Positions 1,958 through 6,710 of a DNA stretch of 64,000 nt are shown piece by piece. The stretch's first letter is position 1. Every line of letters starts with the position of its first letter. A program made the position numbers and the translations under genes. Below the pieces are notes generated by a model. The model saw nothing but the letters and a program-made list of their open reading frames with translations, did no database searches and was not told where the DNA came from. The stretch comes from an uncultured Hyphomonas sp. (GTDB lineage Bacteria; Pseudomonadota; Alphaproteobacteria; Caulobacterales; Hyphomonadaceae): positions 1,426,001-1,490,000 of the forward strand of contig NZ_OY782759.1 of assembly GCF_963678195.1 (NCBI RefSeq). Direction: 5' to 3'.

Positions 1958-2167
1958 ATGAATGTCGGCAAGCGATTTGGTAAAAGGCTGAAGGCTCTCA
2001 GGGCAGAGCGAGGCTGGTCTCAGGAAGAGTTTGCAGACCGCGCAGGGCTACACAGAACCTATGTGTCGGCTGTGGAACGTGCTGTCCGGAATCCGACGCT
2101 GCCCATTCTTGCAAAAATGGCAAAGGGGTTCGGGATGTCTTTAGCGGAGTTAATGGAGTCCGTCTGA
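1958..2167 (+). CDS. XRE-family HTH protein, controller (C-protein) type
   Basis: 69 residues from the ATG at 1958; a TTG nine bases upstream would add three residues. Almost the whole protein is one helix-turn-helix domain: RLKALRAERGWSQEEFADRAG, then HRTYVSAVERAVRNPTLPIL, then MAKGFGMSLAELM. Size and sequence match the C proteins that time expression of restriction-modification genes. A perfect C-box lies just upstream. The gene is convergent with the EcoRII-like endonuclease gene (35 bases between stops), not in one operon with it. Direct control of that endonuclease is therefore not evident, and the gene may be a leftover of another system. Confidence 0.85.
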   Translation: MNVGKRFGKRLKALRAERGWSQEEFADRAGLHRTYVSAVERAVRNPTLPILAKMAKGFGMSLAELMESV

Positions 2168-2202: not shown

Positions 2203-3426
2203 TCAGGTTTTGACCAGATCCAGAAAATCGCCCACACCCAGAAGCCATTCCTGTTGTGATGCCTGGAACGTGCCATGCAATGGCGTTGGCAGAACCAGTT
2301 GCAAGTTCTGCCCCCGCATCTCATTCGTCTGCGCAGCCGAGATCGCCGGCTGAAGCGTCAGCAGGTGCTTCGGACTGATCCGGTCTGCTTCGGCCAGCAC
2401 CTGACGCCAGCGATCCTTGAGCGTTGTCTTGACCGCCAGCATGTGAAGCTGTTCTGATGGAAAATCCGCCTTCTGATACTCTGCCTCTCCCGGGAACAGA
2501 AAATCCGCCGCATTCCGCTTCTCAGTCGTCGCTTCCCGCGTATAGCGGATCTTATGAGCTTTCAGAATGGCTTCGACATGATGCGCGAACGCAAACCCGG
2601 CCCGTGATTTCCGCCGGTTCTGCACGCTGAGCGAAAACGACAAAAACCCGTCCACGTCGGCGTTGCCATCACTCATGAAGCCAGTCTTCAGACGCTCCGC
2701 CACGATCTCCCGTTCCAGTCGTCTGAACAGCGCTTCCTCGTGCTCCATCCAGGCGATCAGGGTGTCATCGGGTGCGCCAACAGGATCGCAGTCGGGCAGC
2801 GAGGCGCGCGCGAAGTCTGAGAAGATTGCGGTCGTCGGGAACTTAAGCCCGAACGCTTCAACCAGGCGGGCAAACGCATCGGGTTCCTGTTCCTCCGGTT
2901 CTATCCCGAGTTCATCGAGAATATACCGCGCCGCCCAGGACAGAGATGTCGCTGTGCCGGCGTTGAGGAGTTTCGTGTCTGAAGGCCGGGCCATCAGATC
3001 GAGTCCGAACAGCCAGAGGAGCTGCTGCCCTATGGTCGAGCCGGCCGGGGAGAGCAGGATGAGCAGGGAGCCGTCCTTCTTCTGTGCGATGACAAGCAGA
3101 TCTCCGGCCCTTGCCCGGTGCACAATGGGCTCGCTCTCGGCGGCATAGTAGAGATGATACTCTGCGCTGCGGTCCGGATTGTCCCGCCGCACATCGCTCC
3201 AGGTGCAGAAGGCTTCAATGCGGGGTGTTTCCGTATCTTCGGTGTCGTCGAGCCAGAGGAAGGTCGCCGGGAACGTCTTCTTGTCAGCAGGCGTGCCCAG
3301 GAAAGACCGGAAGCTGCCCACACCCTGAAACTCGTGCTGGTTTGAGATGAGCTTATTGACCTCAACCTCGGTGAGGTGTTTGGCGCCGGCACCATGGAAG
3401 AGGTCGGCAAGGGATCCGAACTTCAC
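2203..3426 (-). CDS. EcoRII-like type II restriction endonuclease
   Basis: 407 residues, nearly the length of EcoRII (about 404), from a GTG start with AGGA upstream. The C-terminal half carries D308, K333, K337 and E346. Their spacing (D-X24-K, K+4, K+13) is the one known for the EcoRII catalytic site, including the VKTTLKDRWRQ motif typical of the EcoRII/PspGI/SsoII group. The N-terminal half would be the effector-DNA-binding domain. It is the last gene of the dcm-vsr-endonuclease operon, 14 bases after vsr. The predicted recognition site is CCWGG or a close relative, by family and by its Dcm partner; the specificity is not proven. Confidence 0.88.
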   Translation of the reverse strand: MKFGSLADLFHGAGAKHLTEVEVNKLISNQHEFQGVGSFRSFLGTPADKKTFPATFLWLDDTEDTETPRIEAFCTWSDVRRDNPDRSAEYHLYYAAESEPIVHRARAGDLLVIAQKKDGSLLILLSPAGSTIGQQLLWLFGLDLMARPSDTKLLNAGTATSLSWAARYILDELGIEPEEQEPDAFARLVEAFGLKFPTTAIFSDFARASLPDCDPVGAPDDTLIAWMEHEEALFRRLEREIVAERLKTGFMSDGNADVDGFLSFSLSVQNRRKSRAGFAFAHHVEAILKAHKIRYTREATTEKRNAADFLFPGEAEYQKADFPSEQLHMLAVKTTLKDRWRQVLAEADRISPKHLLTLQPAISAAQTNEMRGQNLQLVLPTPLHGTFQASQQEWLLGVGDFLDLVKT

Positions 3427-3440
3427 GTCTGAGTATCCTG

Positions 3441-3893
3441 TCAGCTGCCACGAAGGGTCAGCATCTTTTCACCTGATACGATCCAGTCCGCAACCCTCGT
3501 GAGAAGTTCGCCCGGCTCCATTCGGCCCGGCCCCTTCAGGGCGCACTCCCAGATGACGACACGTCGCCAGCCAGCTTCATCTATGGCCGCGTAGTTGCGT
3601 CTGTCCCGCGCGATATTGGCGCCGATCTTCTCTTTCCAGAATTCCTGTCTTGTGCCTGGCCACTTGAAGAGGTTGCAGTCATGGCCGTGCCAGAAGCAAC
3701 CATTGACGAAAATCACGGCGTGGTATTTCGGCAGGACCAGATCAGGCCGCCCGGGGAGCTTGCGATCGTGCAGGCGGTAGCGGAACCCGCGCGCATGCAG
3801 ACCTTTGCGAATGATCAGCTCAGGCTTTGTGTCTTTGCCCTTAATCGCCGCCATATTTCGGCTGCGGGTCGCCCGATCATGGACATCAGGCAT
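3441..3893 (-). CDS. vsr: Very short patch repair (Vsr) endonuclease
   Basis: 150 residues from the ATG at 3893, which overlaps the dcm stop by 8 bases; E. coli also has overlapping dcm-vsr genes. E25 (KPELIIRK) and D51 (GRPDLVLP) fall at the same residue numbers as in the E. coli enzyme, and the Zn/active-site region reads [12 protein letters not shown] with H69. Position 64 is Asn where E. coli has catalytic His64; many other Vsr proteins have this substitution. Vsr nicks next to T in T:G mismatches made by deamination of 5-methylcytosine, so it protects Dcm sites from C-to-T mutation. A longer in-frame start at 3986 would lie inside dcm and is less likely. Confidence 0.95.
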
Positions 3894-5118
3894 AGCGCAG
3901 GAGCGGGATGTCTTCTGTCGGGGCGAGATGCTGCAGGATGTGCGGACGCATGATGCGGGCAACTTCCTGGAACACCGGCACGGCAACAGAGTTGCCGAAC
4001 TGCTTATAGGCCTGGGTGTCGGAGACCGGGATGCGGAACGTGTCCGGATAGCCCATCAGGCGGGCGCATTCTCTGGGTGTCAGGCGTCGCGGGTTCTTGC
4101 GTGCGCCGCGGCTGATAAGGATTTCCGAACCATCCTTGTAATAACGGGCTGACAGGGTCCGGCAGGTGTCGTCCGGACCAACAAGCCCGTAGCCGAACCC
4201 GTTTCCGGCGGCTTTGTGTTTAGCGGCATAGTCGCGGAGATATTTCCAGAGGTGAGAGGTCAGCGTGTATTTGTCGCTGACCGTCGCCATTGGTCCGTCT
4301 GTATAGTGTGGTTCTGCCGCTTCAGAGCCATCCTCGGGGTGCAGGATGCTGTTCATCTTCACTTCGCCCAATGGCGGCAGGTTGAGATCATCCCAGCTGA
4401 AGCCGGTCTCTTTCCGGAAACCCACCATCACAATCCGCTCCCGGTGCTGGGGCAGGAAGTGTTTGGCATTGATGATGCGGGTGTGGAGCTGGTAGCCGAG
4501 TTCGTCTTCCAGTGTCCGGCGGATCACCTCGAAGGTGCGGCCCTTGTCGTGGCTCTTCAGATTCTTGACGTTCTCGAGCAGGAAAGCGGCTGGCTGATGA
4601 GCCTTAATGATCCGGGCGACATCGAAGAAGAGCGTGCCCTGGGTTTCATCGAGGAAGCCGTGAGAGCGGCCAAGAGCATTCTTCTTGGAAACACCGGCAA
4701 TTGAGAAAGGCTGGCACGGAAAGCCGGCCAGCAGGACATCATGCTTAGGTATGTCTTCTGCGTCGATCTTTGTGATGTCACCTTCAATCGGCCGGTTGTC
4801 GCGGTAGTTGGCCTGGTAGGTGAGCTGAGCGTACTTGTCCCATTCGCTGGTGAACACGCAGCGGCCACCGATTTCGTCGAAGGCGGTACGCAGGCCGCCT
4901 ATGCCGGCGAAGAGGTCAATGAAGGTGAAGGTCTCCGGGGCAGGGGAAGCCTGCACCTCCCTGGCCCGGGCTTCCATCCATTTCAGAACAAAAGCCTTTG
5001 GTTTCACTTCGCCGGTTTCCCAGCGGAATACTGTCCTCTGCGAATAACCAAGCTCCCTTGCCAGCTGTTCGACCGTCAGACCGGCCTGACATCGGAGAAT
5101 GGTGAATTCGCTGGCCAT
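3886..5118 (-). CDS. dcm: DNA (cytosine-5) methyltransferase, Dcm-type with N-terminal HTH
   Basis: 410 residues. An XRE-like HTH occupies residues ~14-40 ([20 protein letters not shown]). It is followed by the canonical C5-methylase motifs: [11 protein letters not shown] (67-75), [10 protein letters not shown] with catalytic C135, [22 protein letters not shown] and [10 protein letters not shown]. This layout matches M.EcoRII/M.SsoII, in which the N-terminal HTH also represses transcription of the methylase gene. It is the first gene of the minus-strand operon dcm-vsr-endonuclease and is divergent from the MvaI-like gene. Expected product: 5-methylcytosine at the inner C of CCWGG-like sites. 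Autoregulation through the palindrome at 5213 is inferred. Confidence 0.95.
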
Positions 5119-5212
5119 GGGAATCTCGCTTTATGAGGGAATCTGCATGACGGCATGTCAGCATTTGTCCCGCCGGTCAACGATGTGTTCTGGTTTTGTT
5201 TGCGTAAAGCTG

Positions 5213-5222
5213 GGGAATTCCC
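5213..5222. promoter_or_regulatory. Palindrome GGGAATTCCC between divergent dcm and MvaI-like genes
   Basis: A perfect 10-bp palindrome lies about 95 bases upstream of dcm and about 90 (TTG) to 130 (ATG) bases upstream of the endonuclease gene. Methylases of the SsoII/EcoRII type bind a palindrome in such divergent promoters through their HTH. The palindrome is seen; the operator role is inferred. Nothing else stands out in 5119-5312. Confidence 0.35.
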
Positions 5223-5354
5223 AAAGCGTGAGCTCTTTCCCAATAAGGTAGAGGGCAAACCGAGCTGCTCACTCCCGATGGTAGATCTTCGAAATTCCGG
5301 GATCTTCATCTATTGCCTCTTGTGCTGAAGCATCGGGTGCAGCAAATCCATCGG

Positions 5355-6710
5355 ATGGGATTGAATGTACTCGCTGAAGTTCAGAGCATTTTCCGCAAGC
5401 ACGGTGTCAGCACGATCTATGTGAAGGCGCTTGCCGAGAAACAGGACAATGAAAAGAACCAGGTCTTTCTGGGCAGGGAGGTCACCGAACTTCTCAGTGT
5501 GTTCCCCGGGCGGCTTGAAATTCGCCAGCCGAGTGAAAGTGAACTCAAGCGCCAGTCAGAACCTGGGCGCCCCATTACCGAAGCCACTCTGAACTTTTAT
5601 TGGTTGAACCGAGCGGGCGAAAGCTTCCTTGCCCCCGGGACCCGCCTGATCGATTACTTTCAGTATCCCGAGGCGAGGCTTTCTGGATTTCTGCAGGGAT
5701 GTAAGTGGGCGCCGGATGCGATCCGGCGCGGGAAACAGGCAGAATACGGTGCGCGCGTTCTGTTTCTGGGGGCGAACAGAGAAGGTAATGTTTTTGGTCT
5801 CCTGCTGACAGAGCGTGAAGACCCGCTGGTTCAGCACCTTCCTGAGTTTTCCGAATCTGGTGCCTCGAGTGTTCTGAAGACCTTTTCAGCCGATAGCGAT
5901 ACGCTGGAGACATCAGCGCACCTGTTGGAACTTAGGCTCCGCGAAATCATCGGGGCTGGCTGGCATGCGTCGGTCATCAACCGGGGAGGCCAGGTCGAGC
6001 CATTTAAAGGTAATCAGGGGGCAGGATACACTCTGGAGGCTTTACTTGGCGTGCAGGCGAATGCGGAAAAGGAGCCTGATATTCTCGGTCATGAGCTGAA
6101 GACATTCCGGTCCGGAAAGCTCAGCCTGATGACGCCGACCGCGGACGGTGGTCCGGAAGGTGATCTGTCGTTTCGTGAGTTTATGGAGCGGTATGGCACG
6201 CCCGGGAAGTCAGGAGACGGATCAACGCGGTTCACGGGTGTGGCACGTGTCTCGAAACCTAATGCTTCTACAGGCAGGCAGCTGAGGGTGACGGGGTACG
6301 ACCATGCAACGGGACGTTTCTCCCCGAATCCGGATGATGTCCGCATCGAGCAGTTCGATGCCGGATCAGAAGATCTGTTATCAGTCTGGACCCTCAGGCG
6401 CCTGGCAGATGGCTGGAATAAGAAGCATGCTCAGGCCGCCTATGTTGAGGCGGCGGCGAGTGATGGGTCCAATGAGTACCGGTATCTCATGCCGTTCTTT
6501 CTTTGCAGCGGAACGGATATCTGGCGGTTCCTGAAAGCAGTGGCGGAGGATGTTGTATACTACGATCCAGCGCATTCGGTTTATGCCAGTGGGGAAGCGA
6601 AAGTACGTCCGCAGTGGCGGATCAGTACAGCAGACTTCGCGAACAAGCTCTCACGGTTGTACACGACCGTCCGGACGGTTTCAGAAGTGCCGTCTGAGCG
6701 ACATTTGTGA
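5355..6710 (+). CDS. MvaI/BcnI (MutH-like) restriction endonuclease, long form
   Basis: 451 residues from the ATG at 5355; a TTG at 5313 would add 14. The N-terminal ~200 residues begin with an IYVKALAEKQDNEKNQVFLG stretch, as in long MvaI/BcnI-family proteins. The C-terminal domain has GNQGAGYTLEALLG, PDILGHELKT and LSLMTP. With the TTG numbering these give E242, D256, E261 and K263, matching the E...D...ExK site of MutH and MvaI. MvaI itself (about 250 aa) cuts CCWGG and BcnI cuts CCSGG, so this enzyme may share its site with the neighbouring Dcm/EcoRII-like pair. It is divergent from dcm. Role of the N-terminal domain unknown. Confidence 0.85.
   Translation: MGLNVLAEVQSIFRKHGVSTIYVKALAEKQDNEKNQVFLGREVTELLSVFPGRLEIRQPSESELKRQSEPGRPITEATLNFYWLNRAGESFLAPGTRLIDYFQYPEARLSGFLQGCKWAPDAIRRGKQAEYGARVLFLGANREGNVFGLLLTEREDPLVQHLPEFSESGASSVLKTFSADSDTLETSAHLLELRLREIIGAGWHASVINRGGQVEPFKGNQGAGYTLEALLGVQANAEKEPDILGHELKTFRSGKLSLMTPTADGGPEGDLSFREFMERYGTPGKSGDGSTRFTGVARVSKPNASTGRQLRVTGYDHATGRFSPNPDDVRIEQFDAGSEDLLSVWTLRRLADGWNKKHAQAAYVEAAASDGSNEYRYLMPFFLCSGTDIWRFLKAVAEDVVYYDPAHSVYASGEAKVRPQWRISTADFANKLSRLYTTVRTVSEVPSERHL

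Follow-up and report, generated by a model that had tools for sequence, protein, structure and literature searches.

Gene content of the locus

A restriction-modification (R-M) locus with one Dcm-type C5-cytosine methylase and two nucleases was analyzed in a 64,000-bp stretch of DNA from an uncultured Hyphomonas sp. (contig NZ_OY782759.1, positions 1,426,001 to 1,490,000), herein referred to as the window. The locus includes genes for an EcoRII-type endonuclease, the Vsr endonuclease, and Dcm, as well as a divergent gene for a second nuclease of the MvaI/BcnI type. Its features, in window coordinates, are the following:

2203..3426, minus strand: EcoRII-type restriction endonuclease, 407 aa, with a predicted B3-like N-terminal domain and an EcoRII-C catalytic domain (PF09019, 2.7e-67)
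3441..3893, minus strand: vsr, very short patch repair endonuclease, 150 aa (PF03852, 3.1e-34; TIGR00632, 3.4e-44)
3886..5118, minus strand: dcm, C5-cytosine methylase, 410 aa (PF00145, DNA_methylase, 3.5e-87), with an N-terminal helix-turn-helix (HTH_31, 2.5e-08)
5119..5354, no strand: spacer between dcm and the MvaI-like gene; homology to the related genome G421 ends at 5220 (GGGAATTC), according to blastn and the letters at the junction
5355..6710, plus strand: second nuclease, 451 aa from ATG 5355, with a predicted B3-like N-terminal domain and an MvaI/BcnI-type catalytic domain (PF15515, MvaI_BcnI, 5e-26)

The dcm, vsr, and EcoRII-type genes form a row on the minus strand, as in an operon. 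According to the coordinates of the open reading frames (ORFs), dcm and vsr overlap by 8 bases, and a gap of 14 bases separates vsr from the EcoRII-like gene; in the ORF listing, the vsr frame is open further upstream, to TTG 3986. The MvaI-like gene is divergent from dcm and located 236 bp upstream of it. Its frame is open from TTG 5313, but ATG 5355 is the better placed start, as the aligned relatives start near this position. This gene order, as well as the presence of two full-length nucleases of CCWGG-type families around one Dcm-Vsr pair, had been proposed by a model from the sequence alone (the original prediction) and was borne out by the ORFs and by four strong Pfam matches. The source genome is a single contig of 3.67 Mb, in which one match to the C5-methylase family was found by profile search.

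The two nucleases and their N-terminal domains

EcoRII and MvaI cut the same CCWGG site with different folds. The catalytic residues expected for each of them by the original prediction are present and conserved in the window. The EcoRII-like protein has the D-X24-K...E arrangement, with D308 and K333 at the spacing of EcoRII, and D308, K333, and E346 are invariant in all 28 aligned EcoRII-like proteins. The MvaI-like protein has E242, D256, E261, and K263 (numbered from TTG 5313; the alignment numbering from ATG 5355 is 14 lower), and these residues are invariant in 13 of 13 MvaI-like proteins and, in a larger alignment, in 93 of 93.

The profile of the EcoRII-like family matched EcoRII (1na6, 6.5e-125, covering 10-397) and EcoRII-N (3hqf, 1.3e-23). 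The predicted model of the window protein, with a predicted local distance difference test score (pLDDT) of 85.8, likewise matched EcoRII, as well as 3hqf (3e-4), the B3 domain of BfiI (3zi5, 8e-4), and the B3 domain of UbaLAI (5o63 by its PDB title, 2e-3). Pfam EcoRII-N had no match in the window protein, but it did match the corresponding protein of a Treponemataceae locus described below (L105, 2.7e-27). Comparison with the counterpart in G421, a draft genome of the same genus in about 120 contigs, gave a ratio of nonsynonymous to synonymous substitution rates (dN/dS) of 0.094; the EcoRII-like gene is under purifying selection. Relative to G421, the N-terminal half of this gene (window 2601-3400) is 81-90% identical and the C-terminal part 94-97%, with dcm and vsr mostly at 96-99%. 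The low N-terminal identity may reflect either exchange within the gene or an effector domain that changes fast.

The model of the MvaI-like protein (pLDDT 92.9) was matched by Foldseek to MvaI (5.8e-13), BcnI (1.9e-11), and the B3 domain of BfiI (3zi5; E 2.8e-3, probability 1.00). The profile of its catalytic domain found MvaI (E 3.5e-9) and BcnI (E 5.9e-6). The catalytic domain is thus common to all three enzymes, but MvaI and BcnI have 249 and 238 residues, whereas the window enzyme is extended at its N-terminus by a domain of about 190 residues and is partnered by a C5 methylase. The 18 closest relatives (alignment A2) are 42-56% identical to the window protein.

The two nuclease families had been described as unrelated. 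This remains correct for the catalytic domains but not for the N-terminal ones: profile-profile comparison aligned the N-terminal ~150 residues of both families (probability 90, E 1.4e-6). Three pairs of residues are in register, K16/K24, Q30/Q36, and E89/E106 (EcoRII-like/MvaI-like). In the EcoRII-like proteins, K16, Q30, and E89 are kept in 28, 27, and 28 of 28 sequences, and K24, Q36, and E106 are kept in 93 of 93 MvaI-like ones. The profiles and models suggest that both nucleases carry an effector domain at the N-terminus, resembling B3 and EcoRII-N domains. UbaLAI consists of a B3 domain joined to an MvaI-like catalytic domain and recognizes CCWGG. Since the N-terminus of the second nuclease aligns with the EcoRII-like one and resembles B3/EcoRII-N domains, this nuclease is probably built of the same two halves.

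The EcoRII-type part of the locus corresponds to a known kind of module. The EcoRII R-M system (R.EcoRII, M.EcoRII) and dcm-vsr-EcoRII modules have in common with it the EcoRII-C domain, the B3-like N-terminus, the Dcm-type methylase, and vsr; the window differs in an N-terminal domain that has diverged beyond the reach of Pfam EcoRII-N and in the extra nuclease. The dcm-vsr-EcoRII module was found on five plasmids, and a passage of PMC3091744 describes such a three-gene module in phage KL3. On plasmids of Agrobacterium and Marinobacter (L175, L181), the module lies beside genes for a DEAD/DEAH helicase, a stand-alone EcoRII-N protein, an ATP-binding protein, and an HNH nuclease; related neighborhoods are described in passages of PMC2292703. 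No Type II system that has two nucleases of the same specificity was named in the titles or abstract openings of the open-access papers searched; in PMC4081073, the phrase "two restriction endonucleases" is the title of a reference.

Methylase partners, nuclease exchange, and co-occurrence

Relatives of the MvaI-like protein are encoded at 411 genome loci, the best 80 of which were surveyed for neighboring genes, with Dcm counted within 4 kb. A Dcm-type gene adjoins the MvaI-like gene in 79 of the 80 loci, and vsr was found in 64; at the lone locus lacking dcm (L086), the match lies 143 bases from the contig end. In 22 of the 80 loci, the sequence available to one side of the MvaI-like gene is shorter than 4 kb, so the counts of vsr and EcoRII in this set are lower bounds. 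The MvaI-like gene is located behind dcm on the same strand in 52 loci, is convergent with it in 13, and is divergent from it in 13; dcm is downstream in one locus and absent from one. On viral contigs with an MvaI-like gene, at least 2 of which duplicate genome loci, dcm was found in 12 of 12, vsr in 6, and EcoRII in none. A search of viral contigs for the EcoRII-like protein gave 10 stretches and no relative. Plasmid loci, taken from 10 of 18 records, contain dcm in all 10 cases, vsr in 7, and EcoRII in none by tblastn. One of these (L015) encodes an LlaMI-type enzyme, with similarity to the window protein confined to the catalytic part.

Given dcm in 79 and vsr in 64 of the 80 loci, the two-domain MvaI-type enzymes, with their N-terminal domain of ~190 residues, are an ordinary family of R-M nucleases and usual partners of Dcm. 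A single-domain MvaI/BcnI enzyme of 274 aa was found directly after an N6_N4 methylase (G624:C6:19508-20245, L218); dcm-EcoRII is present in the same genome. In these data, the single-domain kind pairs with an amino-methylase (one case) and the two-domain kind with a C5 methylase.

The target-recognition part of the window Dcm is identical to that of E. coli Dcm in 50 of 93 positions (54%) and to that of the EcoRII-linked methylase of a Citrobacter plasmid (L182) in 51 of 93 (55%). As a control, the methylase beside the LlaMI-type nuclease of L015 gave 33 of 95 (35%). E. coli Dcm and the EcoRII-linked methylase mark CCWGG, and the recognition part of the window Dcm resembles those of such CCWGG methylases. 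In a tree of 129 Dcm proteins labeled by neighboring nuclease, 97 have MvaI, 26 EcoRII, 2 both, and 4 none. The labels are more clustered than in shuffles, and they change along the tree at least 13 times for MvaI and at least 14 times for EcoRII (starred branches).

One such change can be followed in DNA. The loci of Ponticaulis koreensis (L039) and a congeneric genome (G464, L128) have 91-95% DNA identity on both sides, including dcm and most of vsr on one side and typA/bipA beyond the exchanged segment on the other. Between them, positions 7602-9006 of L128 (1,405 bp, EcoRII) occupy the place of positions 9880-11456 of L039 (1,577 bp, MvaI). The Dcm proteins are 97.5% identical and the Vsr proteins 84.6%, the break being located in the 3' end of vsr. 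No MvaI gene was found elsewhere in G464 by a PF15515 genome search. This natural swap is the best functional clue: since the Dcm proteins are 97.5% identical, one Dcm should protect against both nucleases, and an exchange of EcoRII and MvaI behind near-identical methylases suggests that both nucleases probably cut CCWGG and that one and the same Dcm mark blocks them.

Regarding the origin of the two-nuclease state, G421 has the same left flank and dcm-vsr-EcoRII genes as the window (93.9% over 5.2 kb), but the blastn homology stops at window position 5220, before the MvaI-like gene. No MvaI_BcnI match was found in this draft by genome profile search. An Xre/MbcA/ParS antitoxin and RES-domain pair occupies the place of the MvaI-like gene (L127 14879-16026), with the contig ending 1.3 kb beyond. 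Because the homology stops there and the Xre/RES pair is found instead, the window MvaI-like gene, together with the DNA just upstream of it, is a separate module. With an Xre/RES pair in one genome and an MvaI-like gene in the other, the junction upstream of dcm is a variable spot. On the right flank, 42 genomes of the genus were compared for the MFS gene; only its own genome gave a close match (two others at 40-41% identity), so no empty site was found.

A second case was found in a Treponemataceae metagenome-assembled genome (G488, Spirochaetota). Its locus L105 contains EcoRII, dcm, and divergent MvaI in the layout of the window, without vsr. This locus is 78-80% identical across dcm and MvaI to L088 and L114, which have MvaI only, and 79% identical across EcoRII and dcm to L162 and L166, which have EcoRII at dcm. 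The simplest history suggested by these similarities is a gain of MvaI beside dcm-EcoRII, followed by loss of EcoRII. C-terminal remnants of EcoRII, 70-79 residues long, were found ~1 kb after dcm in three other Treponemataceae loci (L171, L172, L173); in L172, the one of the three for which ORFs were listed, an HNH_2 protein is encoded between dcm and the scar and may represent a third replacement of the nuclease. In L088, L114, L084, and L087, the search for EcoRII remnants downstream of dcm reached only chance level (best E 0.044).

Co-occurrence of the two nucleases is rare. Among the 80 genome loci, EcoRII lies beside the MvaI-like gene only in L105. When the genomes of 50 of these loci were searched whole, EcoRII-C was found in two, that of L105 and that of L048 (on another contig). 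In the 105 genomes of the window's own family, EcoRII-C was found in 12 and MvaI_BcnI in 4, and in 397 genomes of the phylum, a set containing the window's genome by construction, in 23 and 11; both occurred together only in the window's genome. Without this genome, ~0.6 overlaps are expected by chance in the 397-genome set and none was observed; these counts give no indication that the two nucleases are kept together. Among 274 Treponemataceae genomes, EcoRII-C was found in 18 over the cut-off and in 20 at E 0.001 or better. The regions read in the 17 genomes besides G488 contain no MvaI near EcoRII, although in 5 of them (L159, L163, L164, L166, L170) the contig stops short of dcm or extends no more than 0.8 kb past it. 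Searched whole, the 18 genomes had MvaI_BcnI in G488 and, as the single-domain enzyme far from EcoRII, in G624.

The original prediction had regarded the locus as the window's strongest candidate for an undescribed system, had proposed a search for a conserved dcm-vsr-EcoRII-MvaI quartet, and had held that a lack of this linkage elsewhere would speak against it. The linkage is nearly lacking elsewhere: a single further case, L105, was found, and it is without vsr. A conserved four-gene system was rejected, with EcoRII near 1 of 80 MvaI loci and co-occurrence in the 105- and 397-genome sets restricted to the window's own genome; the locus instead looks like an R-M system of a known kind in which the nuclease has, as a rarity, been doubled.

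Interpretation of the two-nuclease state

The locus is rather likely to be a Dcm-Vsr-type Type II R-M locus that holds two alternative nucleases at once, both directed to CCWGG, and that represents a rare stage of nuclease turnover. In such a locus, Dcm would methylate the inner C of CCWGG, and unmethylated sites would be cut both by the EcoRII-type homodimer and by the MvaI-type enzyme, each presumably expressed and active and anchored or activated via its B3 domain at a second site, as in Type IIE enzymes. The Dcm mark would block both nucleases, and Vsr would repair the T:G mismatches arising at marked sites from deaminated 5-methylcytosine. The double state would be a rare and probably passing stage.

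Several observations weigh against this interpretation. The main doubt is that MvaI proper cuts CCWGG methylated at the inner C, so that the MvaI-like subfamily has to be assumed to be blocked by the Dcm mark; tolerance of this mark would make little sense for the subfamily, given its near-universal pairing with Dcm. The domain build is like that of UbaLAI, but the UbaLAI B3 domain (5o63) was absent from the best 50 of 562 fold matches listed for the MvaI-like model, and a PDB search with the profile of the MvaI-like N-terminal domains gave neither 5o63 nor another credible relative (best E 1.2). The nearest relatives of the window MvaI-like gene are 56% identical to it, with synonymous sites too saturated for dN/dS. 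A consensus scan detected no promoter-like site in the dcm/MvaI gap (0.3 expected by chance), where only short inverted repeats and no clear operator were found. The Dcm tree groups L105 with L088 and L114, and since the support is only 87/93, the order of gain and loss in Treponemataceae is unsure. Finally, an Arg located two residues past the invariant E89 is kept in 26 of 28 EcoRII-like proteins and replaced by His (H91) in the window and G421.

Selection for both nucleases is one alternative. Redundant cutters with different folds could hinder phage escape or anti-restriction, and the two-nuclease R-M system would then be a recurrent selected architecture, with a shared B3 domain for CCWGG. 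It would combine a base-flipping homodimer with a sequentially nicking monomer, the two acting jointly behind one methylase, and would have arisen with an identical gene order on at least two occasions (Alphaproteobacteria and Spirochaetota). The full-length frames with conserved catalytic residues and the recurrence of EcoRII, dcm, and divergent MvaI in the distant L105 fit such an architecture. It is nevertheless unlikely, in view of just two cases, EcoRII by 1 of 80 MvaI genome loci, no adjoining MvaI in the 17 other EcoRII-C Treponemataceae (the single-domain enzyme of G624 lies elsewhere), no co-occurrence beyond the window's genome among 397, and a near relative, G421, without the MvaI-like gene.

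Alternatively, one of the nucleases may already be non-functional, with the locus working through the other. This possibility overlaps with the turnover interpretation, as the double state would then be ending. The EcoRII scars in three Treponema loci and the His in place of the conserved Arg point in this direction, whereas the full-length frames, the catalytic residues kept in both proteins, and the dN/dS of 0.094 for the EcoRII-like gene make it improbable.

There is only a slim chance that the MvaI-like enzyme has another site or ignores 5-methylcytosine and is protected by a different methylase. MvaI proper is paired with an N4-cytosine methylase, the single-domain relative in G624 adjoins an N6_N4 methylase, and such a methylase is available at the left edge of the window, where an N6_N4 match (G000:C1:1425921-1426556) lies within a 492-aa frame. 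However, this left flank is common to G421, where no MvaI_BcnI gene was found, and the two-domain relatives are located beside Dcm in 79 of 80 loci. In G421, the left-edge N6_N4 stretch corresponds to two overlapping ORFs, ParB_N and N6_N4_Mtase, which adjoin a terminase, and the flank is prophage-like. Between this flank and the locus, a 69-aa HTH_3 protein (window 1958-2167, plus strand) is encoded convergently with the EcoRII-like gene; it is about as large as R-M controller proteins.

A role of the MvaI-like protein in repair, as a nicking or mismatch enzyme similar to MutH or Vsr rather than a restriction enzyme, is very improbable. The MutH-like fold of MvaI/BcnI enzymes and the presence of vsr in the operon would fit such a role, but MvaI replaces EcoRII behind dcm-vsr in the Ponticaulis pair, no vsr was found by 16 of 80 relatives (some loci end near the gene), and the N-terminal domain resembles that of EcoRII.

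The turnover interpretation agrees with the reasoning of the original prediction that the second enzyme has to be compatible with the Dcm mark. Among the options listed there, sensitivity to 5-methylcytosine is favored by the presence of dcm at 79 of 80 genome and 12 of 12 viral loci, whereas another site, nicking, mismatch cleavage, and partnership with Vsr repair are not supported.

Restriction nucleases depend on their methylase, and in evolutionary terms it is an open question how a nuclease of one fold can give way to one of another fold without damage to the host. Around one Dcm lineage, this family provides the natural stages, with EcoRII only, MvaI only, both, and scars, as well as a clean swap at one chromosomal place, and nuclease turnover thereby becomes directly testable. 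The MvaI-like subfamily is predicted to be blocked by Dcm methylation, unlike MvaI. The interest of the locus lies in a family of nucleases that can be exchanged around a single methylase and of which two instances of the double state were found.

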